64,000 bases of DNA. Source: a virus. The stretch lies in the IMG/VR virus record IMGVR_UViG_3300028423_000586, positions 1 to 64,000 of that record; one strand, given 5' to 3'. Position numbers and translations under genes: made by a program. Positions 7,776 to 55,465 of this stretch are shown in pieces (position 1 is the stretch's first letter; each line of letters begins with the position of its first letter). The notes under the pieces were generated by a model, which ran no database searches, had not been told where the DNA came from, and was given only the letters and a program-made list of their open reading frames with translations.

Positions 7776-7958
7776 ATGAGCTTTATTAAGCGACTTAAGA
7801 CTAAGCTGCTTGCATTGCTCATAACATTAGGGGTAATAGGATGTTTCTTCCTATTACCCCTAATTGTTAGCCTATTTATATTTATAGGCGTAGGTGCTTT
7901 AGTCTACATATTCGTCTTATCTGTATTACATGAAACAGATGAAGACGAAAATACTTAG
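7776..7958 (+). CDS. small membrane protein
   Basis: A 60-residue protein with a basic start (MSFIKRLKTK), two hydrophobic stretches (about residues 11-31 and 33-51) and an acidic C-terminus (HETDEDENT). It is predicted to be an inner-membrane protein of unknown role. Its stop overlaps the stop of the convergent vRNAP gene by four bases. The coding sequence contains a perfect 16-bp inverted repeat (7826-7864), so its translation and mRNA folding are linked. Confidence 0.65.
   Translation: MSFIKRLKTKLLALLITLGVIGCFFLLPLIVSLFIFIGVGALVYIFVLSVLHETDEDENT
7826..7864. repeat. perfect 16-bp inverted repeat inside coding sequence
   Basis: ATTAGGGGTAATAGGA (7826-7841) and TCCTATTACCCCTAAT (7849-7864) are exact reverse complements with a seven-base loop. 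The repeat sits where the replication and late transcription units converge. No U-run follows on either strand. It may act as a transcription barrier or a double-strand RNA processing site. Confidence 0.8.
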
Positions 7959-10900
7959 TAGAATTGGGCTATTGGGTGAGCATTAGTACCCATACTAATA
8001 CCATCCATAAGCCCTATCTTAGCTCCCAAATCAACTGATGGTGCAAAAGAATTTAATGGACTATCCACATCAATAGCCATTAAGTTTTGAGCAGCTAAGA
8101 AAGCAAGAATCCTAGCCGGTTTATCTCTAAAGGCATTAAGAATCACTTTCTGAATACGAATAAAGTATTTAAAGAACCATGTGATACCAACATCATTCAT
8201 ATACTGCATTGCTTTATGAGGTGGTAAGTCATAGTTGATAAATGCTTCAGTAATAGCAGTAAGTGCATTCTCCTGTGTATAACCTTCATTCTTGGTTAAG
8301 TGATTAAACAATGCAAAACGTGCTGCAAAGTCAGATAACTGAGTAGCTTGGCTTAGAGCATCATATGTAATAGAACCTTGAGATATAGTAATCTGCTTAA
8401 CACCTTCAACCAAAGTATCAGGAAGCATACTAGTAACACTGCTTACTTTACTTGCTAGACTGTGTTTGTATGAGTAGATACTATCCTGCGCATCTGAATC
8501 CTCAATAATGGTTTGAAGCATACCTGCATCCATAAGAGGTTTAACTGGATTACGTTGCTGGTCTTGGTTAAGTCTTACTAAACGGTTTTCCATAGCAGGA
8601 GTACCTAAACCGGCATCAATCTTAGTCTGTAAGTCAAATATCTCTTCTGAGTTTTTACGGTATTCAGATGCAGCAGTAAATGCAGTTATCTGGTCAGTAA
8701 TAGTCTTTATAGGACTTACACCATGTAATACAGGAAGCTGCATTGTGTTAGAAATAGCGTTACCTAGCATGACGATAACAGACTTGATAACCACTATATC
8801 TTTCACTTCTTTTACAAATTCTTGTAAACCTCTTTCACCTCTAGCTACATAGTTAGCAATCTTATTACCATACACACTACTAGCCATTTTAACTGCCATG
8901 TCTTTAATAAGAGCAGGGTACTCACTATCAGGGTTCCACAAGTCAGTTAAAGACCATTTACGGTAACCAAAAGCTACGTTCACTAAGTCATTTCTGACAT
9001 ACACACCTTCAATACCAAACTTATTTTTTGCTTTACGTTTAGCTTCTTCAGGTAGGAGATTCCAAGTTTCACGTAGTTGTTTATCTTTGGAGTTAGCCTC
9101 TACTAACACATAACGGTCTAAGTTATTTGAATCTCTATCCTCTATGTACTGCTCATGTAAGGCATCAATCAAACGATTGTTAATCTCCTCACTGTTTACT
9201 TTAAGGGTGATACCTGCTGCCATAGCACCAAAGACTTCATCAACACGGTTATCCTTACGTAGTAAGCTATCCTTCATTGACTCGCTCATTACATAACGGT
9301 AATCCACTACTTGACCTGCTTTATTCGTAGTAGGTACAAGAGGGTTAAATACAGTCTTAGGTTTATTAGTGAATAGACTACCCATTGAAGCTTCTTTACT
9401 ACGTGCTATCTGAGCGATGACTTCAGGTTTTCTGGCATTAGGTAATGCATTACCTGCTTGTGCAAAACGGTCAATAACACTAAAGCCTTTAGCTGCTTTA
9501 TTAGCAGTCGAAAGAATACTCTGTAAGTAAGAAATCTCACCGCCGTATTCAGAAACATATAAGAACATAGGTTTCTTAACAGGGTCATTCTTATCTGCAT
9601 TTAATGGTCTATTGATACGGACATAACCTTGTAATTTAAGCTCTGATTCAGCCTCTAATGGAGCTACTTGAACACTACGGTAAGGGTCTACTATCTCTCT
9701 AATGTAGCCTTTCTGGAAGTTGTGCTCTGCATTAACAAAATTCTTAGTTAGAGCATCCTTCTTATTACGGTTATGTAGAGCCATCAAGAAGTAAGCACCA
9801 TTACGGTTATCTGTTCTTGCTGCTTCTTTAGCCATAACACGGGATACTCTACGTTTATCAGAAAACTGAGTCATCTTAAGAGCTTGTAGTGTAACTAAAC
9901 TATCCACTCGATTGCGTACAGCAGTACTAACATTAGGGTTAGTTTTACCAGTACCGTGTAAAGATACAATAGCATCTGTGTTGAACACCATTCCATCTAC
10001 AGTAGCTTCACCTCTAGCCATGTATCTACCTAATGATTTACCCATATTAGTAAAGTAGTAGTACAGGTCTTGTGGAACATCTTGACGTAATTGAGCAGTT
10101 AACTTAGTAATCTCTTTGTTAAGGAGCTCTTTATCAGCTATGAGGTTTTGGATAGTAGTCAAGTCATATCCATTCTCTAGTAGACTACTCACATCTGCTT
10201 TAAGTAAAACTTTTGTCATAGCAAAGCTATCTTTTTCTTCAAGAGGTTCTATAAACTCATCACGTACCATACGTGCAGTATGTTGTTTAATATGTACGTT
10301 TTCTTGGTCTACCATTTTATTTTTGATAGCCAATAATTGATGGATTCTTTGGTTACCTGAATTAGTGCCTTTTAGGTCTGACCATAATGCAGATATAAAT
10401 CCTTCTCTCCCTTGTGCTCTCAGGCTCTGTACACGGTCTAAACCAATTGCAAAGGTGTTTGCACGTTCTTCACTTAGAAGGACCCCTGCTAAACGTACAG
10501 AAGCATTTAGGACAGCTCTCTCTTTGACTGCTTTTTGGGATGCCTCTAAAGCTTTATCAATACGCTCTTTACCCCAATTGTTTATACGGTTAAGAGTATT
10601 AGAAGCAAAACCTCCAATCCTTTCAGCATCCTTAGCTAATTTAGATTTCTCAGCTAATTCTTTGTAGCGGATGTTCTTAGAGAGAGTATCTAGTTTACCT
10701 AGTACAGTAGATTCATGAGAACGGGTAATAGCAAAATCATTCAACCAATTAATGATTGCAGTCATCACGTTATCAATAGTCTCACGAACTGTATCCCCTT
10801 TAAGACTCTTACTTAACAAACGTGGTGTTTCCAAATTAGCTAAACGTTCACGGAAAGATTCGTTGGTTACAGCTAATGCAAGGAAATTACGTAGATAATC

Positions 10901-13900
10901 ATTCACACCTGTTCCTGCATTATTAAATACAGCATCATAACGAGATTGAGCTAAAGCTTTAGATTGCTCAATATCTTCAGGTGTATTAAGTACAGACGAG
11001 TCATCAACGAAGTCTTCCCAAGTCATATTTTTTTCAGCATGGTCGTACATACGTCTGATTTCACGAGTATTCCAACCAAAGTCATTAAGTGCTGAATCAA
11101 TAACATGACTGTACATACCGTAAACAAATCGCTCTTGCTCACTCATACGGAAGTTAAGACCAGATAAAACTGTAAGAGTATCGTTAACACTTGGGTCTAA
11201 TCTATTTAGTAAAAGAGCATCTTCTGTAGCCAATCCTTGGTTAGCATCTGTAGTAACCAACAATGCAGGGTCAATCACTTTAGATACTGCTTCATCTAAA
11301 ACTGTTCTAAGATGAGTATCATGCTCATTGGTTATTTGAACTGTATTACGTCGAGCAACACCATCATATACTTGAGATAGGGTTAAACGTTTAATAGAGT
11401 CCTCTGCTCTATGAGGTAGTGTTTTAGGGTTACCTGTAATTGAGTTATCTACTCTCTTACCGTAAGTACTTAGTGTGAATGCCTTATCAAGTAATTGAAT
11501 CAGTGCATTGTTGTCAGCATCGGTCATACCTAGCATCTGTTTAACTAATCTAGTAACAGAATTAGCTAGTGCTCTTAGACGAGTTTTACTCTTAGATAAC
11601 TCTGATTTAGCTTGGTTATTAGTTAATCCCCAAGCAACAAATTCATAGATATTCTCTAATGCATTAGCCGGTAAGGTATTACGCTTAACTGCATCATCGT
11701 ATAATTTCTGAATATCACGTACAGCTTTAAGTTGGGCTTTGGTTAGTCCTAAATCAACACCGGTACGTAACTGCTCTAATCCATTGAATAAAGCATCACT
11801 TGTAGCTATATGTACTAGCTCATGGAATAACGTCTCTGTGGTGAAACCAGTATTAATTTTATCTTCAGCGTTAAGATAAATAACGTTATCGGTAGTAGAT
11901 GCATAACCATGTAGTAACTCAGTGTTTTCTTTACCTTGGTTAGTCACTACATCATGATTATCAGTACCACGTAATACTCTTACTGTTACCCCACCTGTAT
12001 TAGCAATATTAGCTAACAAAGCATCATAGATAACACGGGTTGTTGTAGGTATTTCTAAAGTACTTACTAAGTCTCTTAAGTCAGTAACACTAGCTTCAGA
12101 CCTACCTTTAAAGAAATCAGCGATAGGTGTCTCAGCATCAGGATTAACATAACCAGTAGATAGGCTCTCACTCACATTACGCTCTATTGATGCCAGTGTA
12201 GTGTCTATATTTTCTGTTTCTGGTAGCTGTTGTGTAGCAGTGAGCAGCTTCTGCTCAGAGTTAACAATAGCCTCGGTAATCATCTCTGGAGTTAGCTCTA
12301 CTCCTTTCTTAACTTCACCATTGTTAAAACGTACACCTGTACCCAAAGCTTCAAACTGGTTAAAGGTGAGTTCTTTTTTCAGTAAGGTTTTTGCTTCGTT
12401 GTTATTCTCTAATGCAAGTTCATTTTTAGCTGCAACAATACTCAAGTACTTGTTAAGCATATTTTCATCAATCATTGAGACTACTTGCTCATCATTGAAT
12501 GTAGTTGAGCTATTACCTTTAAATAAGGTTGCCTTACCTTTAACTACCTTACCGCCTTGGAAATATGCAACTGCATAGTGCTTTAGTTGAATTACACTAG
12601 GGTCGTTTGAGTCTAACTCAGTATTACTAAATGCTTTATAAGAAGCTGCAAAACGCTCATTGACTGTTTCTAGAATACTATGCTCTGCAACTGCTTCATA
12701 GGCAGAACGGTTAAGAGAGAATGCTGATTCTACAACACTGTTTATAGGTGCAATACGAGCATCAAATACGTTTAAACCAATGTTCTTAGTAGAGTATTGA
12801 GTAGCTCTAGCCATAGTTGTAGCATCGCCGTTAGCGATGTTTAGCATAGCCATAGTACTAGCAGCAGGAGCTGTGTAAGTAGGTAAATATGAAGGAGTTA
12901 AACTAAACCCTTTCATAGTATCGCCAATAGTAAACAAGCTCTTAACTTCATCAGGTACTTGGTTAGTCTCTGCAAAGTTTGCTGTTTGAATACCGTTGTT
13001 TACATCACCGTAGTAACTGCGATATACCGGCATAGTCTCAATGAGCTCTTTCTTAACCTCGTTAAGTTGTTGCTCACTTAGATATTCATAAGAGCTCAAT
13101 ACACCTGAGTTGCGTAGTTCAGCAATACGGTCATTTACTGCTTTATCGTACATGGCTTTAAACATAAAGAAGATAACGTTACTAGATTCAGTAACTAAAT
13201 CAGTATTTTCTATTTGAGTTTCAAAGTTTTCTCGAATAGCTTTATTAACCATGTTACCTAGTGTCTCACGTACCGTTTTATTCATGGTTTTCACCATGTT
13301 TGGTGTGAATTCAAAATCAGACGGAGACATAGAAGTAATAGAGTTATCCCCTGTTAGGAAGATAATGTCATTAGCAATCTCGTTTAGCTTTTGAGTATTG
13401 TTAGACTCTACAGCAGCTTGTAAATCTTCTAGGATATTACTGCGAATTGATTCAGCAATCTTATTACTAATAGATGCTTCACCCGCAGCATAAACCGTTA
13501 CCGTAACAGGGTTCTTAGTTAGTTTACGTCCTTTAGAGGTAACACTAATTAAATCACCTGTATCTTCATCTACAGATACAATCTCACCTACATACTTTTT
13601 AAGTACAGGATAACGCTGCTTAGATAACAAAGTTACTTCATCATTAATGATGTTAGGGTTAAGTAACTCTTGTTCATACTGACCTATAGTAGCAGCAGTG
13701 GTTTGATAGATATCCCAGTTACTTGGATTACTAATCCAGTCAGTATATGACTGAGTACCATCCAAGAATAAACCACCTTGAGCCATACGTTGGATGCTAT
13801 CGTCTGTGACCTTACCGTTTACTACTTGTAAGCCCATTTGTATATGTGCATTAAATGGACCATTCGTAATACCATCAATCTCGTAGGTAACTGTAGTATC

Positions 13901-16900
13901 AAAAGGCTTACCATTAGCTAAGCGCAATTCCGCTAAACCAACCAATGATTTTAATGAATGGGTATTCTCTCCACCTTTAGCTACAGCAGCAGTAATAGCC
14001 GATACATCTGCTTCTTGGCTAGATAGTAATTTAGTAAGCTCAGTTACACCTGAATCAATAACAGGGTCATTAATAAGTTGTTCGTATTCATACAAGCTCT
14101 TAGCTAACGTTTGCTTATCAATGTCGATACCCATACCTTGAGCCACACCTAGTTTAAAGGTGACGTAACTAGCATTAGTGTTATCGCTAGGGTCAATACG
14201 GCTAGGTTCCATTGCAGTCAAGTAACGATGTAGTTTAGATGTTTGATAGTTAATATCAGAACCAATAGCAGATAAACGAAGTTGTTTACCAAAACGATAG
14301 TTGTAGAAAAACGGAGCATTAAGATTACCTTCCTGCTTTAGCATACGGTTTCTAAATTCTTTGAATGTTCGGATATCTCTACGTACTGTTCGATTCTTAC
14401 CTACTACTTTAGGAAGTAATCCTTTGATTACTCCTTCTTCTGATTTCTCCCCTAAAATCTCAGCAATAACGTCATCACCTAAAGCATCAAAAACAGTGTT
14501 CATATTAGCGTCAATATAATGAGGTACGTCTGCATCTTTATTAGCACCTTCTACAAACTTTTTAGATGCTACCTGACCACCAGAACGTCTTACCTGATTA
14601 CTAACCTTGCTAGTACGTTTACCAATCTCAGCCTTATGTGGTTCCTTGGTTACAGAGGTTAATGATTCAATAAACCCATCCAGAGCACCAAACAACTCAA
14701 GTGAATCAGTACCAAAACCAGTATCCAATGATTTAAGGTTTACTTTTGAACTACGTATTACCGCCTTATCGTTTGTGTAGTTACCGCCTAACTCATTTAG
14801 CTGTTGACCTGTGAATGTCTCAGTCTCAATAACATTCATATCTTCTAAAGCACGATAAATAACACGACCTAAATCCATCTCAATCTTGCTTTGAATATTG
14901 ATAGGCATATCAGTATTACGTTTAAGACCTACATTCTTAAGTGCTGTTCGACCTAATGCTTTTACTACTTCTAAGTAAGGAGAACCTGCATTACCTAAAG
15001 CACTTAATTGTTGAGATGTAGGAGTAAAGTTACTTGAATCAACATTCAACAATGTAGCCATACCGGTATTGCTGATAGAGTTTAACTGAGATGCATTGTT
15101 CTCTAGGTACTCCATTGCTGTAATACCTAATGTCTCTAACAACTCATCTGAGTATGTACCGTCTTCTCTTGAGAAGTAATCAAAAGGGAATCTATGTTGA
15201 AAACCTCTTCGAGCCAAGATTTCAGCAGGGGTCTTGAGATTATTAGTAATACTGTCAGCTACTTGAGAACTAAAACTACCTAGTACACTCAATAAAGTAT
15301 TTTCAGAAGGTAGTAAGTCTCTACCCAACTCTAATGCAACTTCTTCCGTATTCGTGATATCAATAGAATCAATCAATCCACGTCGGGTATTAGTAAATAC
15401 CACGTTTACTTGGTTAGTTGATAAGAAATTCTTATCAGCTCCTTCATACGTTTTGTTCTTTGATTGTGGTTCAGCACCAGTATTCAATTCATCAAGAACA
15501 CCTGATTGAGAAGGTGCAGAAGTTACATCACCCTCATCATTGAAAACATAATCACGAGACTCAAGCTCTTCTTTTGCATCCAGAGTAGTAATGTCTTTAC
15601 GAGAATCTGTCTCTAAGTTGTGGACAGCTAATAGCTCAATATCAGTAGCAGACGATGCTGGATTTACTACATTTTCATCTGTTGTTTCCTGTACCGCTTC
15701 AGGGGTTGCCTCAGTAGTAGGGGTATCAGTTACTTCAGTAGTTTCTACATCTGTAGATGCTTCAGTAGTGATTTCTTCATTAACATCTGTTGTATTAGTA
15801 GGAGTAGATGCAGTAAGTAGTTCAGGGTTACTAAACCCTGCTACTTGGTTATTTAGATTTTGTAATGTCTGTGCAGATAATTGAGCTTCCACACTGATAT
15901 CATTAACCAACTTGTCAGCATTAGCGTCTACTGTAGCTTGGGAGCCATCAAGCTTAAGGAAACCTTCTACGGGTACTCTTGTACCTGCCGGAGAAGCCTT
16001 AGCCTGTTCTAGAGCATTCTGATAAGCAGTAGCTTTGTTGCTTAGGTGGTTAGCAAAGTTACCCAACAGCGATAACTGATTCTTAGCTTGTTGAGTACTA
16101 CCCATGTTAAGCATAGTGCCAATACGTTGCTGATATTGTCTTAAACCAATAAATCCTTTACCGCCATTCACAATATCATTATGAACAGCATCAGTAGATT
16201 TAAGAGTGTCATTCAACTCAGCAGTAAGACGCAACTGATTAGCCCTTTGAGGACTTACGTTAGGGTTGTTAGAAGCTTGAATAAGCTCTTCGCTAGTTAC
16301 TTGGTCAGTAGTGATTGCAGCTTCATTTAATAGAGCAGCATCTTTATCAATACGTGCTTGATTGAAACCGTCAGCATCATTAGCCAATGAACTAGTCTCT
16401 GATTCAATATCTAAAATACGAGACTTAATTTCATTAACTTTATCAGGACTAGTAGCAATAGCATTAAAGGTATTTTCTACTTGTTGTGAGTAAGTATCAC
16501 GTACTTTTTCAAGACGAGTCAGTTCCTGTTTCGTCTCTTTTTGGTTTCGTTTGATTTCTTCACGACTAGTCTCATTAAGACCTTCTTGCTGAGCCATAGC
16601 ATCTAACTCATCAAGCATCACCTCAGCATTTTCAATACGTGAGTTAACAATGTTAAGGGTGTTCTTAGCTAATAAGGCTGCATCTTCTTTAGTAGTTTCT
16701 AAAGTAGACTCTTGTTTCTGAAGATTAGTAGCATTACGTAATACTTTTGCTAAGTCTGATGCTTTATCGTAACTAGCTTCAGAAACTGATTCACGTACAG
16801 TGTCATCCGAAATAATAGAATTATCTAAGTTGACTTCAGCAGTACCCGTATTTACTTTCTCTGTTACGTTTTGTTTAGTCTCTAAACCCTTACGTAAGTT

Positions 16901-18139
16901 ATTTACTTTTTCTACAGATGTAACACCACCTGCTAAAGCAGCACCAGAACCAAAGCCAAATAAACCTGCTGTGAATATCTCATCACCTGATAAACGTTCA
17001 GTATCCTGAAGACCTGCATAAGCTGTTAAGGCTTCTTCAGTGGATTCAGTAATACCTTCTGCTACAGCACCTGTAGCAGCTCTAGGAACCACGTTTGATA
17101 CTTGGTTAGGTACTAGTCGAGCACCAGTTGCTAAGAATCGGTCTGAGTATGTACCTACAATACCTGCTAAAGCTGAGTAAGCTTGAGTAGTTTTACGTTC
17201 ATCCCCTACTGGAATATCCCCATACTCTTTCTCAAACTCATCTAAAGCTTGTTGGTAGTTCTGGTTAGCTAAAGCTGTTGTACCTACTGCAATACTTCTA
17301 GCAGCAGTCAACATAGCAGGAATAGACTCAACAGTAACTTGAGCTACAGCTTGTGGGTTAGAGAATAGTGTGTAAAGCCCTTCAGCAGTGAAATCTTTAG
17401 CACCTTCTATCAAGTCTTCAATCCCGCTTAAATCATCAGCCTGTAGTTTCTCAATACCTTGGTTAATAGTACCTATATTGTTATTGAATACGTCAGCAGC
17501 TTCATTAAATGCAGTTTCAGTCTTAGCAGTGTTAACCAACTCTTCGCCAGAACTAAAAACATCATTAAATTCTTTGAGGCGTTCACTATTAGAAAAGAAA
17601 CGGTCTAGTATCTCTTTTTTAGGTTCCATAGCCACTGAAGGGGTAGTTGCTTCTCTACCTGAATCGGCTAGCAAAGCAGAAGCATATTGAGCATATGGTT
17701 GGTCATCTACATTACGTTGACGTTCCCAAGGCTGTAGTAAAGCTTGCTCTTCAGGAGTGTATTCAACATCCTGTCCTTCAGAAGCTAGTTTTTCTTTCTC
17801 TTGAATAGAACGGTAGGTAACCAAGTCTTGAGCAGTAAAATCACCACGACTGACATCAAACTCATTTAACGCAGTTGGTATAGCAGATAGGATATTACCT
17901 ACTTGCTGTAAAGCCTTACTACCTAAAGAGATACCAATGTTAGTTGCTGCTCCTAACGGGTTCTCCAACTCACTATCAGACACAATAGCATCAGGACTTG
18001 TACTACGGTCACGGTCAATAGAACTGATAGCATTTAGCCGTTCCTGTTGAGAACGGCTAGTTGATAGTAGTTGGTTTTTGTAATCTTGGGTTGCTTGCTC
18101 TAACGCAATAGCTGTAGAAGACTTAGGGTCTATTGCCAT
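7955..18139 (-). CDS. virion RNA polymerase (vRNAP), N4 gp50-like
   Basis: A 3394-residue protein packaged in the virion and injected to transcribe early genes. The central region has single-subunit RNA polymerase motifs: YRFGK near 1282 (T/DxxGR-like), EIDGITNG with Asp1422 (motif A), R1538-x3-K1542-x7-Y1550 (motif B) and FDARIAP with Asp1793 (motif C). N4 vRNAP has about 3500 residues with its polymerase core at about 1000-2100, so size and layout agree. The N-terminal 1100 residues are helical and Thr/Ser/Glu-rich, probably for packaging and ejection. A zincin-like HELVH (2106-2110) followed by YEFVAWGLTN lies just after the core. The last 600 residues contain hydrophobic helices. It is the last gene of the leftward late block and ends tail-to-tail with 7776-7958. 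Confidence 0.93.
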   Translation of the reverse strand: MAIDPKSSTAIALEQATQDYKNQLLSTSRSQQERLNAISSIDRDRSTSPDAIVSDSELENPLGAATNIGISLGSKALQQVGNILSAIPTALNEFDVSRGDFTAQDLVTYRSIQEKEKLASEGQDVEYTPEEQALLQPWERQRNVDDQPYAQYASALLADSGREATTPSVAMEPKKEILDRFFSNSERLKEFNDVFSSGEELVNTAKTETAFNEAADVFNNNIGTINQGIEKLQADDLSGIEDLIEGAKDFTAEGLYTLFSNPQAVAQVTVESIPAMLTAARSIAVGTTALANQNYQQALDEFEKEYGDIPVGDERKTTQAYSALAGIVGTYSDRFLATGARLVPNQVSNVVPRAATGAVAEGITESTEEALTAYAGLQDTERLSGDEIFTAGLFGFGSGAALAGGVTSVEKVNNLRKGLETKQNVTEKVNTGTAEVNLDNSIISDDTVRESVSEASYDKASDLAKVLRNATNLQKQESTLETTKEDAALLAKNTLNIVNSRIENAEVMLDELDAMAQQEGLNETSREEIKRNQKETKQELTRLEKVRDTYSQQVENTFNAIATSPDKVNEIKSRILDIESETSSLANDADGFNQARIDKDAALLNEAAITTDQVTSEELIQASNNPNVSPQRANQLRLTAELNDTLKSTDAVHNDIVNGGKGFIGLRQYQQRIGTMLNMGSTQQAKNQLSLLGNFANHLSNKATAYQNALEQAKASPAGTRVPVEGFLKLDGSQATVDANADKLVNDISVEAQLSAQTLQNLNNQVAGFSNPELLTASTPTNTTDVNEEITTEASTDVETTEVTDTPTTEATPEAVQETTDENVVNPASSATDIELLAVHNLETDSRKDITTLDAKEELESRDYVFNDEGDVTSAPSQSGVLDELNTGAEPQSKNKTYEGADKNFLSTNQVNVVFTNTRRGLIDSIDITNTEEVALELGRDLLPSENTLLSVLGSFSSQVADSITNNLKTPAEILARRGFQHRFPFDYFSREDGTYSDELLETLGITAMEYLENNASQLNSISNTGMATLLNVDSSNFTPTSQQLSALGNAGSPYLEVVKALGRTALKNVGLKRNTDMPINIQSKIEMDLGRVIYRALEDMNVIETETFTGQQLNELGGNYTNDKAVIRSSKVNLKSLDTGFGTDSLELFGALDGFIESLTSVTKEPHKAEIGKRTSKVSNQVRRSGGQVASKKFVEGANKDADVPHYIDANMNTVFDALGDDVIAEILGEKSEEGVIKGLLPKVVGKNRTVRRDIRTFKEFRNRMLKQEGNLNAPFFYNYRFGKQLRLSAIGSDINYQTSKLHRYLTAMEPSRIDPSDNTNASYVTFKLGVAQGMGIDIDKQTLAKSLYEYEQLINDPVIDSGVTELTKLLSSQEADVSAITAAVAKGGENTHSLKSLVGLAELRLANGKPFDTTVTYEIDGITNGPFNAHIQMGLQVVNGKVTDDSIQRMAQGGLFLDGTQSYTDWISNPSNWDIYQTTAATIGQYEQELLNPNIINDEVTLLSKQRYPVLKKYVGEIVSVDEDTGDLISVTSKGRKLTKNPVTVTVYAAGEASISNKIAESIRSNILEDLQAAVESNNTQKLNEIANDIIFLTGDNSITSMSPSDFEFTPNMVKTMNKTVRETLGNMVNKAIRENFETQIENTDLVTESSNVIFFMFKAMYDKAVNDRIAELRNSGVLSSYEYLSEQQLNEVKKELIETMPVYRSYYGDVNNGIQTANFAETNQVPDEVKSLFTIGDTMKGFSLTPSYLPTYTAPAASTMAMLNIANGDATTMARATQYSTKNIGLNVFDARIAPINSVVESAFSLNRSAYEAVAEHSILETVNERFAASYKAFSNTELDSNDPSVIQLKHYAVAYFQGGKVVKGKATLFKGNSSTTFNDEQVVSMIDENMLNKYLSIVAAKNELALENNNEAKTLLKKELTFNQFEALGTGVRFNNGEVKKGVELTPEMITEAIVNSEQKLLTATQQLPETENIDTTLASIERNVSESLSTGYVNPDAETPIADFFKGRSEASVTDLRDLVSTLEIPTTTRVIYDALLANIANTGGVTVRVLRGTDNHDVVTNQGKENTELLHGYASTTDNVIYLNAEDKINTGFTTETLFHELVHIATSDALFNGLEQLRTGVDLGLTKAQLKAVRDIQKLYDDAVKRNTLPANALENIYEFVAWGLTNNQAKSELSKSKTRLRALANSVTRLVKQMLGMTDADNNALIQLLDKAFTLSTYGKRVDNSITGNPKTLPHRAEDSIKRLTLSQVYDGVARRNTVQITNEHDTHLRTVLDEAVSKVIDPALLVTTDANQGLATEDALLLNRLDPSVNDTLTVLSGLNFRMSEQERFVYGMYSHVIDSALNDFGWNTREIRRMYDHAEKNMTWEDFVDDSSVLNTPEDIEQSKALAQSRYDAVFNNAGTGVNDYLRNFLALAVTNESFRERLANLETPRLLSKSLKGDTVRETIDNVMTAIINWLNDFAITRSHESTVLGKLDTLSKNIRYKELAEKSKLAKDAERIGGFASNTLNRINNWGKERIDKALEASQKAVKERAVLNASVRLAGVLLSEERANTFAIGLDRVQSLRAQGREGFISALWSDLKGTNSGNQRIHQLLAIKNKMVDQENVHIKQHTARMVRDEFIEPLEEKDSFAMTKVLLKADVSSLLENGYDLTTIQNLIADKELLNKEITKLTAQLRQDVPQDLYYYFTNMGKSLGRYMARGEATVDGMVFNTDAIVSLHGTGKTNPNVSTAVRNRVDSLVTLQALKMTQFSDKRRVSRVMAKEAARTDNRNGAYFLMALHNRNKKDALTKNFVNAEHNFQKGYIREIVDPYRSVQVAPLEAESELKLQGYVRINRPLNADKNDPVKKPMFLYVSEYGGEISYLQSILSTANKAAKGFSVIDRFAQAGNALPNARKPEVIAQIARSKEASMGSLFTNKPKTVFNPLVPTTNKAGQVVDYRYVMSESMKDSLLRKDNRVDEVFGAMAAGITLKVNSEEINNRLIDALHEQYIEDRDSNNLDRYVLVEANSKDKQLRETWNLLPEEAKRKAKNKFGIEGVYVRNDLVNVAFGYRKWSLTDLWNPDSEYPALIKDMAVKMASSVYGNKIANYVARGERGLQEFVKEVKDIVVIKSVIVMLGNAISNTMQLPVLHGVSPIKTITDQITAFTAASEYRKNSEEIFDLQTKIDAGLGTPAMENRLVRLNQDQQRNPVKPLMDAGMLQTIIEDSDAQDSIYSYKHSLASKVSSVTSMLPDTLVEGVKQITISQGSITYDALSQATQLSDFAARFALFNHLTKNEGYTQENALTAITEAFINYDLPPHKAMQYMNDVGITWFFKYFIRIQKVILNAFRDKPARILAFLAAQNLMAIDVDSPLNSFAPSVDLGAKIGLMDGISMGTNAHPIAQFY

Positions 18140-37785: not shown

Positions 37786-38004
37786 ATGGCTACAGATTAC
37801 AATACGCTGCTATTAAACATCGCCTCTGCTTTACCTGATACCCAAATTAATATTGATATAGAACTCCTCGAAGGTGTATTAGGTTACCCCGTAGATACAG
37901 ATAATCCTGCTGAACTTTATGATACTTTAATTAATATCCAAGCAAAAACCCGTATCGACATAGCAAAAAAACTAATTGAACTATCTGAAGTGGAGAAAAA
38001 GTAA
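37786..38004 (+). CDS. hypothetical protein
   Basis: A 72-residue acidic helical protein (LLNIASALPDTQINIDIELL), with stop directly adjacent to the next ATG. It is the first gene of the run that includes the dihydrofolate reductase homologue. Family not recognised. Confidence 0.65.
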   Translation: MATDYNTLLLNIASALPDTQINIDIELLEGVLGYPVDTDNPAELYDTLINIQAKTRIDIAKKLIELSEVEKK

Positions 38005-38379
38005 ATGAATTACGTACCTAAACCAGAATGGGCTAAATGGGCAGTTGGTGCCTTGGTAACCAAAGTAAGAGGTTCTTCTTGGACAGGACACATTGTAGGT
38101 TACTACTCAACTGGTCTAACTGAAGTAGGTTACTGTGTGGAATCCGTAACAGAAAAAGGCAGTGTTCAAATCTACCCTGAATCAGCCTTGGAGTTAGTTC
38201 CTGCTTACCCTACAGAGTCTAAACCTGTATTGGCTGTTATTACGCATCAAGGGTGCTTAGGTGCTCATACATGGAAAGAAGTTGTGTACTACGACACTGA
38301 AGCTAAGGCATGGAAATCATACCAAGGCAGCAAAACGTTTGAAGATGGCGAACAAGTATTAGGATGGTATTACGTATGA
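38005..38379 (+). CDS. type II (R67/DfrB-type) dihydrofolate reductase homologue with C-terminal extension
   Basis: A 124-residue protein. Residues 14-63 align without gaps to plasmid R67 dihydrofolate reductase (26-75): SSWTGHIVGYY against AAWQGQIVGWY, GYCVES against GYAVES, and GSVQIYP identical. Known R67 active-site residues are kept: Lys32 (here Lys20) and the Val66-Gln67-Ile68-Tyr69 stretch (here 54-57). R67 is a tetramer of SH3-like barrels reducing dihydrofolate with NADPH and is unrelated to chromosomal FolA. Here a 60-residue extension of unknown role (ITHQGCLGAHTW, GEQVLGWYYV) follows. The phage also has thymidylate synthase (54575-55465), which makes dihydrofolate, so a folate-recycling role is plausible. 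The stop overlaps the next start (ATGA). Confidence 0.8.
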   Translation: MNYVPKPEWAKWAVGALVTKVRGSSWTGHIVGYYSTGLTEVGYCVESVTEKGSVQIYPESALELVPAYPTESKPVLAVITHQGCLGAHTWKEVVYYDTEAKAWKSYQGSKTFEDGEQVLGWYYV

Positions 38380-39122
38380 TTTATACCGGAATAGGGAGTA
38401 GAGATACTCCTAAGGATATTCAATGGATTATGTCTCGTATTGGTTATGGTATGGCTAAACGTGGTCATACCTTACGTTCAGGCAGAGCAGATGGGGCAGA
38501 CCAAGCCTTTGAAAAGGGTTTTTTCTCTTATCACGATGATGTTAACAAGTACTACAAAGTGAGACCCTCTCATGTAACCCCTATGCAAGAGTTAGCAGAG
38601 CTATATAAACCATGGCGTAACTTTGCCTACGTGCCTTCTGTATGGGATATCTTACCTACCGATGACCCTAAATTGTGGTCTAAGGCTTTACAGATAGTAA
38701 GAGATATACATCCTAATCCAGATGCTTTAACAGACGCAGCTAAGCTCCTACACGGCAGGAATGTATTTCAAGTATTAGGTAAAGACTTACTGACTCCCTC
38801 TGATTTCGTTATTTACTGGGCTAAAACAGATAAGTACGGTACTCCTGTAGGCGGTACACGTACAGCAGTTAGGTTAGCCCAACTTAACAACATACCTACA
38901 ATCAATATGCTTGACCCTGACTGGAATGCTCATTTTAAGGAGTTAGTTAACCTATCTGGAAAAAAGCCTAAGTCTTGTGAGGATATGACCTTTACTCAAT
39001 ATAACCCAAAAGGTAAATCTCTTTTAGATGAGCTTAAAAACTACAACCCCACTAAAACTAACGAAGAGAATCCCCGAACTGCATTTTTTAATGCATGGGG
39101 TTCTGTATGGGATGAACTATGA
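38376..39122 (+). CDS. SLOG / DprA-like Rossmann-fold protein
   Basis: A 248-residue protein beginning MIYTGIGSRDTP and continuing GHTLRSGRADGADQAFEKG, the glycine-rich nucleotide-binding pattern of the SLOG/LOG/DprA superfamily. A second part (YGTPVGGTRTAVRLAQLNNI) completes the Rossmann-like domain. Members bind or hydrolyse nucleotides and nucleotide-derived ligands, or bind ssDNA. The role here is unknown. The ATG at 38376 overlaps the previous stop in an ATGA arrangement; an ATG at 38364 is the alternative. About 55 C-terminal residues are poorly conserved-looking. Confidence 0.75.
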   Translation: MIYTGIGSRDTPKDIQWIMSRIGYGMAKRGHTLRSGRADGADQAFEKGFFSYHDDVNKYYKVRPSHVTPMQELAELYKPWRNFAYVPSVWDILPTDDPKLWSKALQIVRDIHPNPDALTDAAKLLHGRNVFQVLGKDLLTPSDFVIYWAKTDKYGTPVGGTRTAVRLAQLNNIPTINMLDPDWNAHFKELVNLSGKKPKSCEDMTFTQYNPKGKSLLDELKNYNPTKTNEENPRTAFFNAWGSVWDEL

Positions 39123-44339: not shown

Positions 44340-45227
44340 ATGAACTTAGAGAAATTAGCTAAAGACCATGAATTAGATTTATTACGTCATGGCTTTGATG
44401 AATTAACTAAAGCTCCATTAAAGTACTTAAACGAAATAGACTTAGATAGCGTAAACCTAGAAGATGAAGAACGTAGTGAACTATTTGATTGGTTACATCA
44501 AGATAAGCTAGATGAAATTGTATATAAGCTAGTAGCTAGGGTAGTTATGGATGGTTCTGTAACTGCTCAAGCACTAGTAGGTATGATGTTTAATAAAATT
44601 AGATACCTTAAATCTAGGCAACATATCCTTGATATTATGCTTAATGCTGTATCTAGTAATAAATTCATAGAAGTTAAACGAGTAGGTATGTACCTAATGT
44701 TTACTTGTAAGAATAAACTACCTAAAGAAATAGCTGATAAGCGTAAGAAACTAAGTTATGTATTACCTAGTATTGATATTCCTCTGAAAGTAACTAATAA
44801 CTCAATGATTGGTTATAGGACTATCAACCAAAGTATTATTTGTGGTGGTGTACTTAAACATCATGATAAACCTTTAAACCTTAATCATATCAACCGAGTT
44901 AATAGAACTCCTTACCGATTAGAAAACCGTATTCAATTCCTAGTTAAACCTCAATTTGATTCTGAACCAAAGATGAAAGATGACGGTAATATGGAAACAG
45001 AAAAAGATGTATCTAAACGCTTTGAAACATGGACTCAGTTAATGACTGAAATCCCAGAAAAAGCAAAGATTATGGTAGAGAACGGTAACCGTTTCTATAT
45101 ACACCACAGATTCGATAATGGAGGTAGATGCTATACCAAAGCATTTCATTTTAATTATCAGGGCATAGCTTATTGTAAGGCTATGGTACAAGCGTATAAC
45201 CGCGAAATAGTAGAACCGGAGTTTTAA
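44340..45227 (+). CDS. phage RNA polymerase II subunit 1, N4 gp15-like
   Basis: A 295-residue protein equal to the N-terminal part of a T7-type single-subunit RNA polymerase that is split in N4-like phages. The C-terminal region holds the T/DxxGR signature (HHRFDNGGRCY, Asp259 to Arg263), followed by KAFHFNYQGIAYCKA, which contacts the hybrid and joins the palm. N4 gp15 (269 residues) pairs with gp16 to make the middle-gene polymerase. The partner gene lies at 46037-47299, separated by two small genes. Confidence 0.88.
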   Translation: MNLEKLAKDHELDLLRHGFDELTKAPLKYLNEIDLDSVNLEDEERSELFDWLHQDKLDEIVYKLVARVVMDGSVTAQALVGMMFNKIRYLKSRQHILDIMLNAVSSNKFIEVKRVGMYLMFTCKNKLPKEIADKRKKLSYVLPSIDIPLKVTNNSMIGYRTINQSIICGGVLKHHDKPLNLNHINRVNRTPYRLENRIQFLVKPQFDSEPKMKDDGNMETEKDVSKRFETWTQLMTEIPEKAKIMVENGNRFYIHHRFDNGGRCYTKAFHFNYQGIAYCKAMVQAYNREIVEPEF

Positions 45228-46036: not shown

Positions 46037-47299
46037 ATGAAACCATTATTCACTGCGGCTCAATGGAGCTTAATTGATTTAGCAAACCAATTTGGTTTAG
46101 ACAAGAAACCATTTGAAGTACGTCTTCAGTGGGGTAGAGAGCAATTAGTTAAAATACGTAAATGCGCAGGTATGTTAGACCTAAGTAAGCATTTCGATGA
46201 CATTATTAAGAAAGCTGATGAGCCTGAACTATTTACTGCTGCTCTACTTAATGTATGGGATATAGTTAATGGTCGTCCTTCAGGTCACTTTATTGAATTG
46301 GATGCTGCTGCTAGTGGTCCTCAGTTATTATCCGTAGCTACTCGTTGTATACGTGGTATGACTATTACAGGTGCTATCAGTGATAATGTACCAGACCTAT
46401 ATACAACGATATTTGGTATCATGCGTGAAGAAGTACCTAACATGGCTGTAATCAAACGAACCAACGTTAAGAAAGCAACAGTACCTTATGTATATGGCTC
46501 TGGTAAAGCACCTAAAACGGTATTTGGTGACTTCCATAATCTATTCACAGAAGCTTATTACAAAGCAGTACCAAGAGCTGAAGTAGTTAAGAACCTGTTA
46601 ATTAATGCATGGGACTCTAATGCTACTTACTATGAATGGGAATTACCTGATGGTCATACAGCTCATATCAAAGTAATCCGTGATGAAAGTGAAGTCTTCT
46701 ACTACAACGGTAAACGTTTTACCTATGTATATGAAGACTTAGGTGCTAAGAAGAAAGGTGAAGAAGGAACCAAGGCATTAGCTGCTAGGGTTACTCACTC
46801 ATTCGATGCTTACGTATTACGTGAAACTGATGCTCGTACTGACTATAACCTTCATCAAATGTTAGTAGCTAAAGAAGCATTAGAAGCTTACTTAGCAGGT
46901 GAAACTCAAATAGGAACCATGACTGAAGTAAAACGATTAGAACGTCTATCTAAGAAATTTAAGATGGTATCTATTCGTGGTGCCGAAGAAATCAAACGTG
47001 GTTACTTAGATGGTATCGACAAGATGTACGCTAGGGAACTTCTAGAAATTGTTAATATCACTCTAAATGAAGATGAACCTGCACAGCTTAAGCTTATTCA
47101 TGATGGCTATGGTGCTCTACCTAACCATGTGAATACCTGTAAGACTCACTACAACAACCTACTAGCTGAAACCTATATCGGTGAATGGTTACCCAAAGTA
47201 GTAGAGCAACTAACCGGTATTAATATGCTTAAAGATATGGAACCGCCTAAAGCAGAAATCATCCGTAAACTACGTAATAGCAAATATGCTATTTCATAA
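46037..47299 (+). CDS. phage RNA polymerase II subunit 2, N4 gp16-like
   Basis: A 420-residue catalytic subunit of the split T7-like RNA polymerase. Motif A is FIELDAAASGPQ with Asp89. Motif B fits R141-x3-K145-x7-Y153-G154 exactly as in T7 RNA polymerase. Motif C is HDGYG with His355-Asp356. N4 gp16 has 404 residues. With the subunit at 44340-45227 it should transcribe middle genes such as the replication block. It ends before a strong terminator. Confidence 0.92.
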   Translation: MKPLFTAAQWSLIDLANQFGLDKKPFEVRLQWGREQLVKIRKCAGMLDLSKHFDDIIKKADEPELFTAALLNVWDIVNGRPSGHFIELDAAASGPQLLSVATRCIRGMTITGAISDNVPDLYTTIFGIMREEVPNMAVIKRTNVKKATVPYVYGSGKAPKTVFGDFHNLFTEAYYKAVPRAEVVKNLLINAWDSNATYYEWELPDGHTAHIKVIRDESEVFYYNGKRFTYVYEDLGAKKKGEEGTKALAARVTHSFDAYVLRETDARTDYNLHQMLVAKEALEAYLAGETQIGTMTEVKRLERLSKKFKMVSIRGAEEIKRGYLDGIDKMYARELLEIVNITLNEDEPAQLKLIHDGYGALPNHVNTCKTHYNNLLAETYIGEWLPKVVEQLTGINMLKDMEPPKAEIIRKLRNSKYAIS

Positions 47300-48896: not shown

Positions 48897-48972
48897 GGTT
48901 ACTTAGCTCAGTTGGTAGAGCAGGAGCGTCATGAGCTTCAGGTCATTGGTTCAAATCCAGTAGTAACCACCA
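48897..48972 (+). tRNA. tRNA with CAT anticodon (Met or Ile2)
   Basis: A complete cloverleaf with encoded CCA: acceptor GGTTACT/AGTAACC, D arm GCTC/GAGC, anticodon stem GGAGC/GCTTC, T arm ATTGG-TTCAAAT-CCAGT. The anticodon CAT is at 48930-48932. The G1-C72 pair argues against an initiator. Bases 32 and 37 are both G, unusual for Met or lysidine-Ile tRNAs, so identity is open. Confidence 0.93.
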
Positions 48973-48973
48973 T

Positions 48974-49050
48974 AGCAGATTAGCCAAGTGGTCTAAGGCA
49001 TCGGACTTTGATTCCGACATTCATAGGTTCGAATCCTATATCTGCTTCCA
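48974..49050 (+). tRNA. tRNA-Gln (TTG)
   Basis: A cloverleaf with encoded CCA: acceptor AGCAGAT/ATCTGCT, anticodon stem TCGGA/TCCGA, loop CTTTGAT with anticodon TTG (49008-49010), T arm ATAGG-TTCGAAT-CCTAT. The discriminator base is T, while bacterial tRNA-Gln usually has G. It starts two bases after the preceding tRNA. Confidence 0.93.
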
Positions 49051-49058
49051 AATTTAAT

Positions 49059-49136
49059 GAGGGGGTAGCTCCAATTGGTTAGAGCGACGGATTCCAAATC
49101 CGTAGGTTCTTGGTTCGAATCCAAGTCCCTTTGCCA
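49059..49136 (+). tRNA. tRNA-Trp (CCA)
   Basis: A cloverleaf with encoded CCA. The acceptor GAGGGGG/TCCCTTT contains three G-U pairs. Anticodon stem ACGGA/TCCGT, loop TTCCAAA with anticodon CCA (49094-49096), T arm CTTGG-TTCGAAT-CCAAG, discriminator G as expected for Trp. Confidence 0.92.
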
Positions 49137-52079: not shown

Positions 52080-52409
52080 ATGACTAAACATGGTGGTATT
52101 GGTTTAGCTGCTAATCAAGTAGGTGTCTTAAAACGTATCATTGTAATGAAAGTACCTAAGTACAAAGGGTGTGTTATCAATCCTGTTATTACTCGACATG
52201 TTAAGAACACTATCGTAAGTACTGAAGGCTGTCTATCTGTACCCGGTAAAAGAGTAGACATGAGAAGGTACAATAAAATTGTACTGGAGGGTTTCGATGA
52301 AAATTGGAATCCTCTTAAGCTAGACCTTAATGGTAAGTCTGCTTTTTGTGCACAGCATGAGATTGACCATTTAAATGGTATTACCATAGATAACCAAAAG
52401 GAAGATTAA
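52080..52409 (+). CDS. minimal peptide deformylase
   Basis: A 109-residue metalloenzyme removing the formyl group from nascent protein N-termini. All three motifs are intact: GIGLAANQ (6-13), EGCLS (49-53, Cys51 metal ligand) and QHEIDHLNG with His93, Glu94 and His97. Bacterial enzymes have about 165 residues. This one starts almost at motif I and ends just after motif III, as in other phage deformylases. An in-frame stop (52068-52070) shows that nothing is missing upstream. It may speed maturation of phage proteins. Confidence 0.9.
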   Translation: MTKHGGIGLAANQVGVLKRIIVMKVPKYKGCVINPVITRHVKNTIVSTEGCLSVPGKRVDMRRYNKIVLEGFDENWNPLKLDLNGKSAFCAQHEIDHLNGITIDNQKED

Positions 52410-52411
52410 CT

Positions 52412-52996
52412 GTGAAAGTACCGACGTTTAATAATAAACCTAACGAATGTGTAACACTTGCTGACGGTAGAACAGTCTTTCTATCCCGTTCTACAGCAGT
52501 GTGTGTAGCAGTTACTGCTCTAGTTAATGGGAAACTTTATACTCTCGTATCTCATAGAGGTAAAGGAGTACCTAACTATCAATACCATCAAAACCTTATT
52601 TGTGGTTACCTAGATTATAACGAAACTCTACATGAAGCTGCTTTACGGGAAGTCTGGGAAGAAACAGGTTTTGATATCTCTTCAATTAATAAAGGGATTG
52701 TGTATGGTATTCAAAACCCTCCTTGGGCTATCTCTGATTTACCTAAAGGTAAAGTTCAAAACATTACTCATCGTTATGGTTTTGTTTTTAAAGTAGACTC
52801 CCTAGATGACTTACCTACCTTATCTAACGCATATTCAGAAAAAGATGAAGTCATCACTTCTGAATGGGTAAGTCATAAAGACCTTCTATTGTTACTTGAT
52901 AACAATCCAGAAGAGCCTGAAAAGTCTTGGGCGTTTAACCACTTTTTCGTTTACCGTGAATGGGTTTCTCTCATTAAGGGGTTTGTATGCACTTAG
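52412..52996 (+). CDS. Nudix hydrolase
   Basis: A 194-residue hydrolase of nucleoside diphosphate-linked substrates. The Nudix box is complete at residues 65-87: Gly65, Glu71, Arg79-Glu80, Glu83-Glu84, Gly86. The substrate cannot be read from sequence; ADP-ribose is a candidate because the next gene encodes a macro-like domain. GTG start at 52412 behind AAAAGGAAG, two bases after the deformylase stop. It overlaps the next gene by 10 bp. Confidence 0.9.
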   Translation: MKVPTFNNKPNECVTLADGRTVFLSRSTAVCVAVTALVNGKLYTLVSHRGKGVPNYQYHQNLICGYLDYNETLHEAALREVWEETGFDISSINKGIVYGIQNPPWAISDLPKGKVQNITHRYGFVFKVDSLDDLPTLSNAYSEKDEVITSEWVSHKDLLLLLDNNPEEPEKSWAFNHFFVYREWVSLIKGFVCT

Positions 52997-53460
52997 TAAA
53001 TAAGTTACTAACGTACCCAAAAGAGATACCTGAAAAACATGTTTATATGTTTACTGGTAATAAGACTGTAATGCGTAATGGTGAGCTTATTATGGGTGGG
53101 GGTAATGCTCTTGCTTTTAGGAAAGCGTATCCTGAAAGCCCTATAGCTTTTGGTAATATCTTTACTCTTAAGAAAGTAGACCGAGATACAGTCCTCAACT
53201 ACTTCTTAGACGCATCTCGTTTTAAAGCAGGTAATGGTCTATTAGGCTGTATGTTTACTAAGGTTAACCCTAAAGACCCAAGCCCTTTAAAGATGGTGAT
53301 AGAAGCTATTGAGGATTTGAAAATAACAGCCACTACTCATGGTCGTAATTTTACCTTCCATCTTCCTTATCCCTCTATTGGGTTAGGTGGTCTAAAACGA
53401 GAAGATTTAGACCCCTATATAGAACAGCTACCTGACAATGTATATGTATACGTGGTTTAG
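52987..53460 (+). CDS. macro-domain-like protein
   Basis: A 157-residue alpha/beta protein. MFTGNKTVMRNGELIMGGGN near the N-terminus and LPYPSIGLGGLKREDLDPYI near the C-terminus resemble the ADP-ribose-binding loops of macro domains. Such proteins bind or remove ADP-ribose and related nucleotides. Overlap with the Nudix gene suggests a shared task. The stop overlaps the convergent gene by four bases. The family call is by eye and moderate. Confidence 0.68.
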   Translation: MHLVNKLLTYPKEIPEKHVYMFTGNKTVMRNGELIMGGGNALAFRKAYPESPIAFGNIFTLKKVDRDTVLNYFLDASRFKAGNGLLGCMFTKVNPKDPSPLKMVIEAIEDLKITATTHGRNFTFHLPYPSIGLGGLKREDLDPYIEQLPDNVYVYVV

Positions 53461-54161
53461 TTAGCATACTTAGCCAGTGTGAGGTTAGCATTACCTAATG
53501 TGAGTGTTCCTCCTAAGTTTGATGCTACCCACACTGATAATTTATCACCTGCCTTTAACCTAGCTTGCCCACCCCCTGATATTGTTTGTAAATCATTACC
53601 ATTAGGCTGTTCACTAGACGTAGGACGTGGGCTGAATGTTATATTAGTACCATCGTCTATACCGAGTACAAACGCTACTGTAGCGTTGTTCTGGGAATGT
53701 CTGAAGGAACCCCACCCTACATTGATGATATACAAACCATCTTCAGCAATAACCAATTCTGAATTACTTACCGTAATACCTTCCAGCTCACCTTCAGCTA
53801 CAAATCCTGTTGCCTTAACATAACCACCACCTGATAACGAACCAGATGCCAATGTTACCGGTGGATTAAGCGTATCATTACCTGATGGGTGTGCTGTCAT
53901 AGTATATAAATTGGGTGATGGGTCATTTATATCTTTCTGACTTATAGCCATAGAACCATATTGAGGAAAGAATAAACTATGCAGTAAGCTATTTAGTGTA
54001 TCTGCGTCATAACCTGTTTCCTTGGTATAAGTAACCAAGGCTTCAGCAACTGCTTCCACTTCTTTCTGTCTTACCCCCTTTATCCTAAATACCCTATCAA
54101 CTACCTTCTTAATACTCTCTACGTCCGGTTCACGGAACAAACTAAACCAGTTAATTTTCAT
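53457..54161 (-). CDS. probable capsid decoration protein on the opposite strand
   Basis: A 234-residue protein. The N-terminal about 90 residues are helical. The C-terminal about 130 form a beta-sandwich-like domain similar in pattern to C1q/TNF-type virion domains (GLYIINVGWGSFRH, LKAGDKLSVWVASNLGGTLT). It is the only leftward gene between 41 and 63 kb. N4 encodes its head decoration protein gp17 outside the main structural block, near the RNAPII genes, so a late virion protein is the best guess. A good sigma70-like promoter lies upstream. Confidence 0.6.
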   Translation of the reverse strand: MKINWFSLFREPDVESIKKVVDRVFRIKGVRQKEVEAVAEALVTYTKETGYDADTLNSLLHSLFFPQYGSMAISQKDINDPSPNLYTMTAHPSGNDTLNPPVTLASGSLSGGGYVKATGFVAEGELEGITVSNSELVIAEDGLYIINVGWGSFRHSQNNATVAFVLGIDDGTNITFSPRPTSSEQPNGNDLQTISGGGQARLKAGDKLSVWVASNLGGTLTLGNANLTLAKYAN

Positions 54162-54213: not shown

Positions 54214-54587
54214 GTGTACAACCAAACGATGACTTAGCCTATAGAGAGGCTTGTGACCTTGCTTTAGCAATAGAAAGGGACTTCTACCCTGAACCTCCTA
54301 AGCTTGAGCTGCTTGATACTACTGATGGTGTCTTGACCCAGATAGACAACATGTATGCAGGTATTCGTAGTAAATACGAAAAGCAAGTAAAATTAACTAA
54401 AACATACGAAATGCTCATTCGTCGCTTTCTTACTCAGTCCGAATTCCATTATTCTATCTTCCCTGAAATTCGCATTCATTGGAGTGAAGCTTTGATGCGA
54501 GAAGCATTAGAGACAGTTCCTGATGATGTTCGAGAAACATTATTCCCTGACCTCAATAAGATGGAGGAGTTCAAATGCAGGTATTAA
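54207..54587 (+). CDS. hypothetical protein upstream of thymidylate synthase
   Basis: A 126-residue acidic helical protein (DDLAYREACDLALAIERDFY). It begins 45 bp from the divergent decoration gene, with GAGGA upstream, and overlaps thymidylate synthase by 13 bp. Function unknown; co-expression with nucleotide metabolism. Confidence 0.7.
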   Translation: MSSVQPNDDLAYREACDLALAIERDFYPEPPKLELLDTTDGVLTQIDNMYAGIRSKYEKQVKLTKTYEMLIRRFLTQSEFHYSIFPEIRIHWSEALMREALETVPDDVRETLFPDLNKMEEFKCRY

Positions 54588-55465
54588 CTGCTGAAATAAA
54601 TACATACGACCAATTGCTTGAGCATGTAGTACGTGAAGCACTACCAGTACATAATCAAACAAACAACATTATGACTTACGTTGTCCCTAATGTTGTGGCT
54701 ATTTTAAAGCCTGATATTTTCCCAATCTGTACTACCCGAAAGTCCTATTGGAAATCTGCTATCCGTGAATTTGTTTGTTACCTTCGTGGTTATGACCGGT
54801 TAGAGCAGTTTCAAGCCATGGGTGTAAAAACTTGGAATAAGAATGGACTAAACCCTAACTGGTTAGATAGTCCTTATTGTTCTGAAGAAGGGGATTTAGG
54901 TCGTATATATGGTGTACAAATGCGTAATTGGCAAAACACTGAAAACGTTAAATATGACCAACTCACTAAAGTAATCCATAACCTTAAACGAGGTATTGAT
55001 GACCGTGGGGAGATTATCACTATGTGGAATCCCGGTGAGCATCATATGGGGTGTTTACGTCCTTGTATGTACTCACATACGTTTTCATTGGTAAATGGTA
55101 CTTTGCACTTAGCGAGTGTTCAACGCAGTGCTGACGTTCCTTTAGGAAGTAATTACAACTTAGTTCAAGCTTGGTTCTTCCTATGGTGGATGTCTACTGT
55201 CACAGGACATAAACAAGGTGATGTTACTCTTCTTATGAATAATGCTCACATTTACGATAACCAACTGGCATTAGCTAAAGAGCAGATTGAACGAGTACCT
55301 TACGTAGCCCCTAACTTTGTTACTTCCAATTTGCATCCTATTGCATGGCAGCACCTTGTACTCAATACTGATGAAGACCCTACAGAACATATACTTCTTG
55401 ATGGGTATGAATGTCATCCACCTATTGAGTATCCTTTCACTACTACAGCAGGAGTAAAAGCATGA
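54575..55465 (+). CDS. thymidylate synthase (ThyA type)
   Basis: A 296-residue enzyme converting dUMP and methylenetetrahydrofolate to dTMP and dihydrofolate. Visible signatures are IREFVCYLRGYDR, GRIYGVQMRNW, ITMWNPGEHHMGCLRPC with catalytic Cys164, QRSADVPLGSNYNLVQAW and HIYDNQ. Asn195 equals the Asn that selects dUMP; dCMP hydroxymethylases have Asp there, so this is a synthase. The residues after the Cys (MYSH) differ from the usual PCH. Dihydrofolate produced could be reduced by the DfrB-like enzyme at 38005-38379. Confidence 0.9.
   Translation: MQVLTAEINTYDQLLEHVVREALPVHNQTNNIMTYVVPNVVAILKPDIFPICTTRKSYWKSAIREFVCYLRGYDRLEQFQAMGVKTWNKNGLNPNWLDSPYCSEEGDLGRIYGVQMRNWQNTENVKYDQLTKVIHNLKRGIDDRGEIITMWNPGEHHMGCLRPCMYSHTFSLVNGTLHLASVQRSADVPLGSNYNLVQAWFFLWWMSTVTGHKQGDVTLLMNNAHIYDNQLALAKEQIERVPYVAPNFVTSNLHPIAWQHLVLNTDEDPTEHILLDGYECHPPIEYPFTTTAGVKA

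Follow-up and report, generated by a model that had tools for sequence, protein, structure and literature searches.

A two-domain DfrB-type dihydrofolate reductase homologue in the early region of an N4-like phage

Homologues of DfrB dihydrofolate reductases are encoded by phages and by bacteria, and several of these have been shown to give trimethoprim resistance (PMC9835603). DfrB-H4 from a Vibrio phage, for instance, conferred trimethoprim resistance up to 600 ug/ml on E. coli despite the presence of extra domains (PMC9835603). What the phage homologues do in their native context was stated to be unknown (PMC9835603). Eight dfrB candidates were furthermore reported in lytic phages (PMC12466917) and four in a freshwater virome (PMC7265639). 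A first-pass annotation of the DNA described here had considered this enzyme class to be known mainly from integron cassettes. This view is outdated in the light of the published homologues and of those annotated in N4-like Rhizobium phages, and a claim of novelty for the phage copy as a possible natural reservoir likewise does not stand.

The protein studied here is encoded in a 64,000-nucleotide stretch of viral DNA (IMG/VR record IMGVR_UViG_3300028423_000586, positions 1 to 64,000), referred to as the window. A tblastn search with the whole protein matched 41 GenBank phage records, about 26 via its DfrB part and ~15 via its C-terminal module. Many of the DfrB matches, including those in N4-like Rhizobium phages, are annotated as dihydrofolate reductase, and 141 IMG/VR contigs harbour relatives bearing a GSVQIYP-type motif. 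A bacterial survey with one genome per species (84,980 species) yielded 50 dfrB loci, nearly all in Pseudomonadota, and in none of these 50 genome loci did ThyA, FolE or QueD adjoin dfrB. Among annotated relatives, AUR82941.1 of Vibrio phage 1.030.O is closest to the window protein (75 % over 51 core columns). Because of its Vibrio phage host and a DNA methylase encoded 2 kb from its gene, AUR82941.1 is probably identical to DfrB-H4 (PMC9835603). Phage DfrB homologues are already known and common, and those with extra domains are a known kind.

The dfrB-like gene of the window (38005..38379, plus strand) has an ATG start, with GGAG 9 nt upstream, and encodes 124 amino acids comprising a DfrB (SH3-like) domain and a C-terminal module. 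The DfrB/R67 domain (38023..38202, plus strand; residues 7-66) is defined by an ungapped alignment to R67 and by the match of an AlphaFold2 model to 1VIE. Residues 7-65 align with residues 19-77 of R67 with zero gaps (phmmer against PDB, E 1.9e-12), and tblastn showed 50.8 % identity with plasmid DfrB1 over 59 ungapped residues. The absence of gaps had been noted before, but for a span of 50 residues. A profile search, proposed earlier as a check, matched Pfam DHFR_2 (PF06442) with 57.6 bits (E 1.1e-15), the cut-off being 25. These alignment and profile scores place the resemblance to R67 far above chance. Lys20 is equivalent to R67 K32 and V54-Q-I-Y57 to the active site residues V66-Y69 of R67, both as numbered in the first-pass annotation, and Trp26, equivalent to W38 in the dimer interface of R67, is retained as well.

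The AlphaFold2 model, built from a six-row alignment (A3), has a pLDDT of 84 and shows five strands in the DfrB part. R67 structures are its best structural matches (1VIE: Z 10.8, rmsd 1.6 A, 60 residues; Foldseek target TM scores of R67 structures 0.86-0.91), followed by unrelated SH3-like folds with Z up to 8.0. The top viral structure match is a 218-aa protein with 69 % identity. The DfrB part is thus predicted to adopt the R67-type SH3-like barrel. By sequence, fold and active site residues the protein is a genuine R67/DfrB homologue, as had been claimed, and is most probably a competent reductase.

The first-pass annotation had also mentioned a C-terminal extension of roughly 60 residues. 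The extension is real, with about 58 residues, but represents a separate phage module rather than a mere extension. This module (38209..38376, plus strand; residues 69-124) is predicted to form a four-stranded beta domain and belongs to phrog_23756. PHROGs splits the protein accordingly, with phrog_31682 covering residues 14-77 and phrog_23756 residues 68-123; the latter match (E 8.6e-14) involves profile positions 51-104 of 109, the conserved C-terminal half. Stand-alone homologues with 49-54 % identity are encoded by Vibrio phages and by jumbo phages infecting Erwinia, Serratia, Pectobacterium, Cronobacter and Xanthomonas, and in GAP32 and XbC2 the gene follows that of a DNA methyltransferase. 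A pattern scan of viral contigs for further stand-alone modules recovered the query alone. No second case of the two-domain form was found among the loci examined: the module motif and a DfrB domain were not seen together in any other fetched locus. The isolated module was modelled by AlphaFold2 from three sequences with a pLDDT of 76, and a Foldseek search of PDB with this model gave nothing below E 0.9. Similarity to DUF551 was not found either: Pfam gave no hits at E 0.1 or lower, and an hhalign comparison with one presumed DUF551-like sequence returned a probability of 0.2 %. The idea that the module repeats the SH3 fold of the DfrB domain was rejected, since the two parts show no similarity.

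The phage is N4-like (Schitoviridae), in agreement with the earlier assignment. It encodes a giant virion RNA polymerase (7955..18139, minus strand; phrog_2206, 1630 bits), an N4-like marker, as well as the two-subunit early RNA polymerase (44340-45227 and 46037-47299, plus strand; phrog_2166, E 1.9e-41, and phrog_2051, E 7e-80). Directly 5' of dfrB, and in the same cassette, ends an ORF of 72 amino acids (37786..38004, plus strand) that has neither a Pfam nor a PHROG match and lacks a counterpart in G045, the closest relative found (terminase 88 % identical). Downstream lies a DprA-like (SLOG/Rossmann) gene (38376..39122, plus strand; phrog_768, E 8.6e-61). The start codon of this gene and the stop codon of dfrB overlap (ATGA), which probably couples their translation. 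Ochrobactrum phage ZX86 has another DprA-like gene near its dfrB. In G045 the flanks of the dfrB/DprA-like stretch are conserved on both sides, while the stretch itself has been swapped for other small genes. Likewise, dfrB was found in none of 15 relatives of the window phage identified by terminase, a set that has no positive control although the family model recovers G000. Replacement in G045 and absence from these relatives mark dfrB as an accessory gene of a variable region. Elsewhere in the window, three consecutive tRNA genes (Met, Gln, Trp) are located at 48897-49136, and genes for a peptide deformylase, a NUDIX protein and a product annotated as phosphatase (phrog_335, possibly a macro-domain) follow each other at 52080-53460. 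A lone minus-strand gene amid plus-strand early genes (53457-54161) has a counterpart in G045 (55 %), and its product resembles, by eye, a jelly-roll surface protein.

It had been stated that dfrB lies beside a phage thymidylate synthase gene. This is incorrect: the ThyA-family gene (54575..55465, plus strand; PF00303, 195.8 bits) lies at a distance of 16.2 kb and has a counterpart with 74 % identity in G045, where no dfrB was found. The window ThyA retains the catalytic Cys, Asn177, His207 and Tyr209. Compared to E. coli ThyA it has Gly at the position of Arg127 and an altered C-terminus, a divergence common to G045; at the position of Trp80 an ungapped reading gives Met in the window and Leu in G045. 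Because several conserved positions differ from those in E. coli ThyA, the enzyme may not yield dihydrofolate; it could be either a methylase or a hydroxymethylase.

With slightly better than even confidence, we explain the observed homology, fold, active site residues, operon overlap and optional presence by a DfrB-type reductase, a putative tetramer with a fused module, that is encoded by an accessory early gene and most likely regenerates tetrahydrofolate. From these observations we infer tetramer formation, catalysis and a role in vivo, and some role for the C-terminal module. The DfrB domain would form, as R67 does, a homotetramer around a single central pore, in which NADPH and a dihydropterin such as dihydrofolate would be bound by K20 and V54-Q-I-Y57, each present four times, and hydride transfer would take place by proximity. 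The separate small phage module, a predicted beta domain, is carried at the C-terminus. Encoded in an early region that varies, and sharing an operon with the gene of the DprA-like protein, the enzyme would most likely regenerate tetrahydrofolate during infection, in a phage that also encodes a ThyA-family enzyme.

Reductase activity is favoured by family and fold, by invariant active site residues, by purifying selection and by the resistance that the probable DfrB-H4 relative confers. The residues K32, W38, V66, Q67, I68 and Y69 are invariant in 23 out of 23 diverse phage DfrBs, in part through selection of the sequences, as the contig scans favour motif-bearing ones; five of the 23, however, are GenBank phage proteins obtained by tblastn without a motif filter, and these have the same residues. 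In one phage group the median dN/dS of dfrB is 0.03, indicating strong purifying selection, with synonymous sites near saturation.

A role in dihydrofolate reduction finds its best natural evidence in a single lineage. The viral contig L051 (L051:5986-9916) has a dfrB gene that overlaps the start of thyA, with a dCMP deaminase gene upstream and a dUTPase gene downstream. Among 15 records with related ThyA proteins none has DfrB and eight have FolA; folA lies shortly before thyA in L120-L122 and at other nearby sites in the remaining ThyA relatives concerned. From this gene order it looks as if FolA has been replaced by DfrB in L051. Across 51 DfrB-bearing virus records, many of which are fragments, ThyA is encoded in six and ThyX and FolA in none. 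These six are the window, Ochrobactrum phage ZX86, RHph_Y38, phiM9, L051 and a 367-kb contig. The absence of FolA from all six, compared to its presence in 8 of 16 controls (the related-ThyA records plus G045), also favours this role, although the contrast reaches only p = 0.051 with non-independent records. The role is weakened by the low number of DfrB records with ThyA, by the finding that dfrB and thyA adjoin in only one of the six, where some adjacency is expected by chance, and by the situation in the window, where a 16 kb gap separates both genes, thyA persists without dfrB in G045 and ThyA may not make dihydrofolate. The viral folate cycle proposed in the first-pass annotation is therefore possible but unproven, given that 45 of the 51 records lack ThyA, none has ThyX and the window ThyA is divergent.

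Another gene context suggests that the true substrate might be a different dihydropterin or a 7-deazaguanine intermediate, in base modification or pterin chemistry, dihydrofolate reduction then being a by-activity of the pore. We consider this unlikely, though it is the strongest of the alternatives. In 40 related freshwater phage loci dfrB is found near genes for GTP cyclohydrolase I, QueD and QueE, at several different junctions and often directly 3' of folE or queD (for example L068:7321-10289); the families of these neighbouring genes were confirmed. An unrelated phage (L072:5781-8141) has a QueD homologue (107.7 bits) encoded 1.7 kb upstream of dfrB, and published phage DfrBs are located near DNA methyltransferases (PMC9835603). 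Phage phiM9 furthermore harbours a ThyA paralogue, td.2 (L114:3355-4125), with Asp at the position of Asn177 as in dCMP hydroxymethylases, about 1-1.5 kb away from dfrB on the assumption of a circular phiM9 genome. On the other hand, the window phage yielded no QueD, dfrB is missing from the majority of queD loci in the freshwater group, which makes the gene optional there, and the operon of L051 speaks for thymidylate synthesis. A neighbouring product of 516 amino acids in these freshwater phages was considered as DpdA/TGT, an identity that neither Pfam nor PHROGs confirmed. In L018, L020, L047 and related loci leader-like stretches (M-x-L-K-x-x-L-K-R...) recur before unrelated genes and are possibly a promoter-type element that lets genes shuffle. 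Both the ThyA and the folE/queD/queE contexts involve dihydropterins, and neither adjoins dfrB in the window.

Still less likely is a non-catalytic function, in which the protein would be an SH3-like adaptor or an NADP(H)-binding protein whose partner is, for example, a nucleotide or the protein encoded by the DprA-like gene. SH3-like folds frequently act as binding modules, and the structural matches included Tudor, chromo and KOW domains; dfrB is coupled to the DprA-like gene, and DfrB fusions to many unrelated domains are known (PMC9835603). An adaptor, however, would not readily account for pore residues that are invariant across diverse phages, for the purifying selection on dfrB or for the trimethoprim resistance conferred by a probable close relative (PMC9835603).

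Recent capture of a trimethoprim resistance gene from an integron, suggested by membership of the same family as the integron DfrBs, is refuted by score (64.4 bits for NCBIfam trim_DfrB, NF000331, below the 137-bit cut-off for resistance DfrBs), by tree position and by context, as neither integron features nor further resistance genes were noticed among its neighbours. Proteins of the NF000331 type have ~78 amino acids and one domain and are encoded in integron cassettes, whereas the window protein has 124 amino acids and two domains and is encoded in a phage early-gene operon. In a tree based on 51 columns, in which most forks are unresolved, R67 falls into one clade with the integron-type DfrBs (99) and the window protein groups with Vibrio phage proteins (94). 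This topology is compatible with the resistance genes having come from phages, without showing it.

More broadly, it is conceivable, and we propose it tentatively, that phages are the natural home of the DfrB fold, which would serve there as a general dihydropterin reductase for different pathways, with the integron resistance genes as a late offshoot and the window protein as one of these reductases that carries an additional phage module. The pathways may include dTMP synthesis, beside ThyA and replacing FolA, and pterin/7-deazaguanine chemistry, beside FolE, QueD and QueE. The window protein adds a two-domain example in an N4-like phage, and two leads on the natural function of DfrB emerge: the dfrB-thyA operon of L051, with relatives that have folA, and dfrB among folE, queD and queE. 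If either context reflects the true function, phages would explain how the odd DfrB enzyme could predate the use of trimethoprim.

Compared to known systems, the window protein combines features that occur separately elsewhere. The phrog_23756 proteins of Vibrio phages 1.033.O and 199E37-1 and of the jumbo phages GAP32, CBB and XbC2 share 49-54 % with its C-terminal module but stand alone, without a DfrB domain. AUR82941.1 of Vibrio phage 1.030.O, a phage whose description does not mention it as N4-like, has a phage-encoded DfrB domain with K32, W38 and VQIY kept, but is a protein of 218 amino acids with a long N-terminal part, another C-terminal tail and no phrog_23756-type module. RHph_Y38, an N4-like Rhizobium phage (Schitoviridae), resembles the window in encoding DfrB and ThyA without FolA or ThyX; its dfrB, however, adjoins the virion RNA polymerase gene, is more distant in sequence and lacks the C-terminal module. 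R67/DfrB1 (PDB 1VIE, PF06442) is an integron-borne resistance enzyme of 78 amino acids and a single domain, with H62 where the window protein has Glu50, and yet both share the fold, about 51 % identity over 59 gapless residues and the active site residues.
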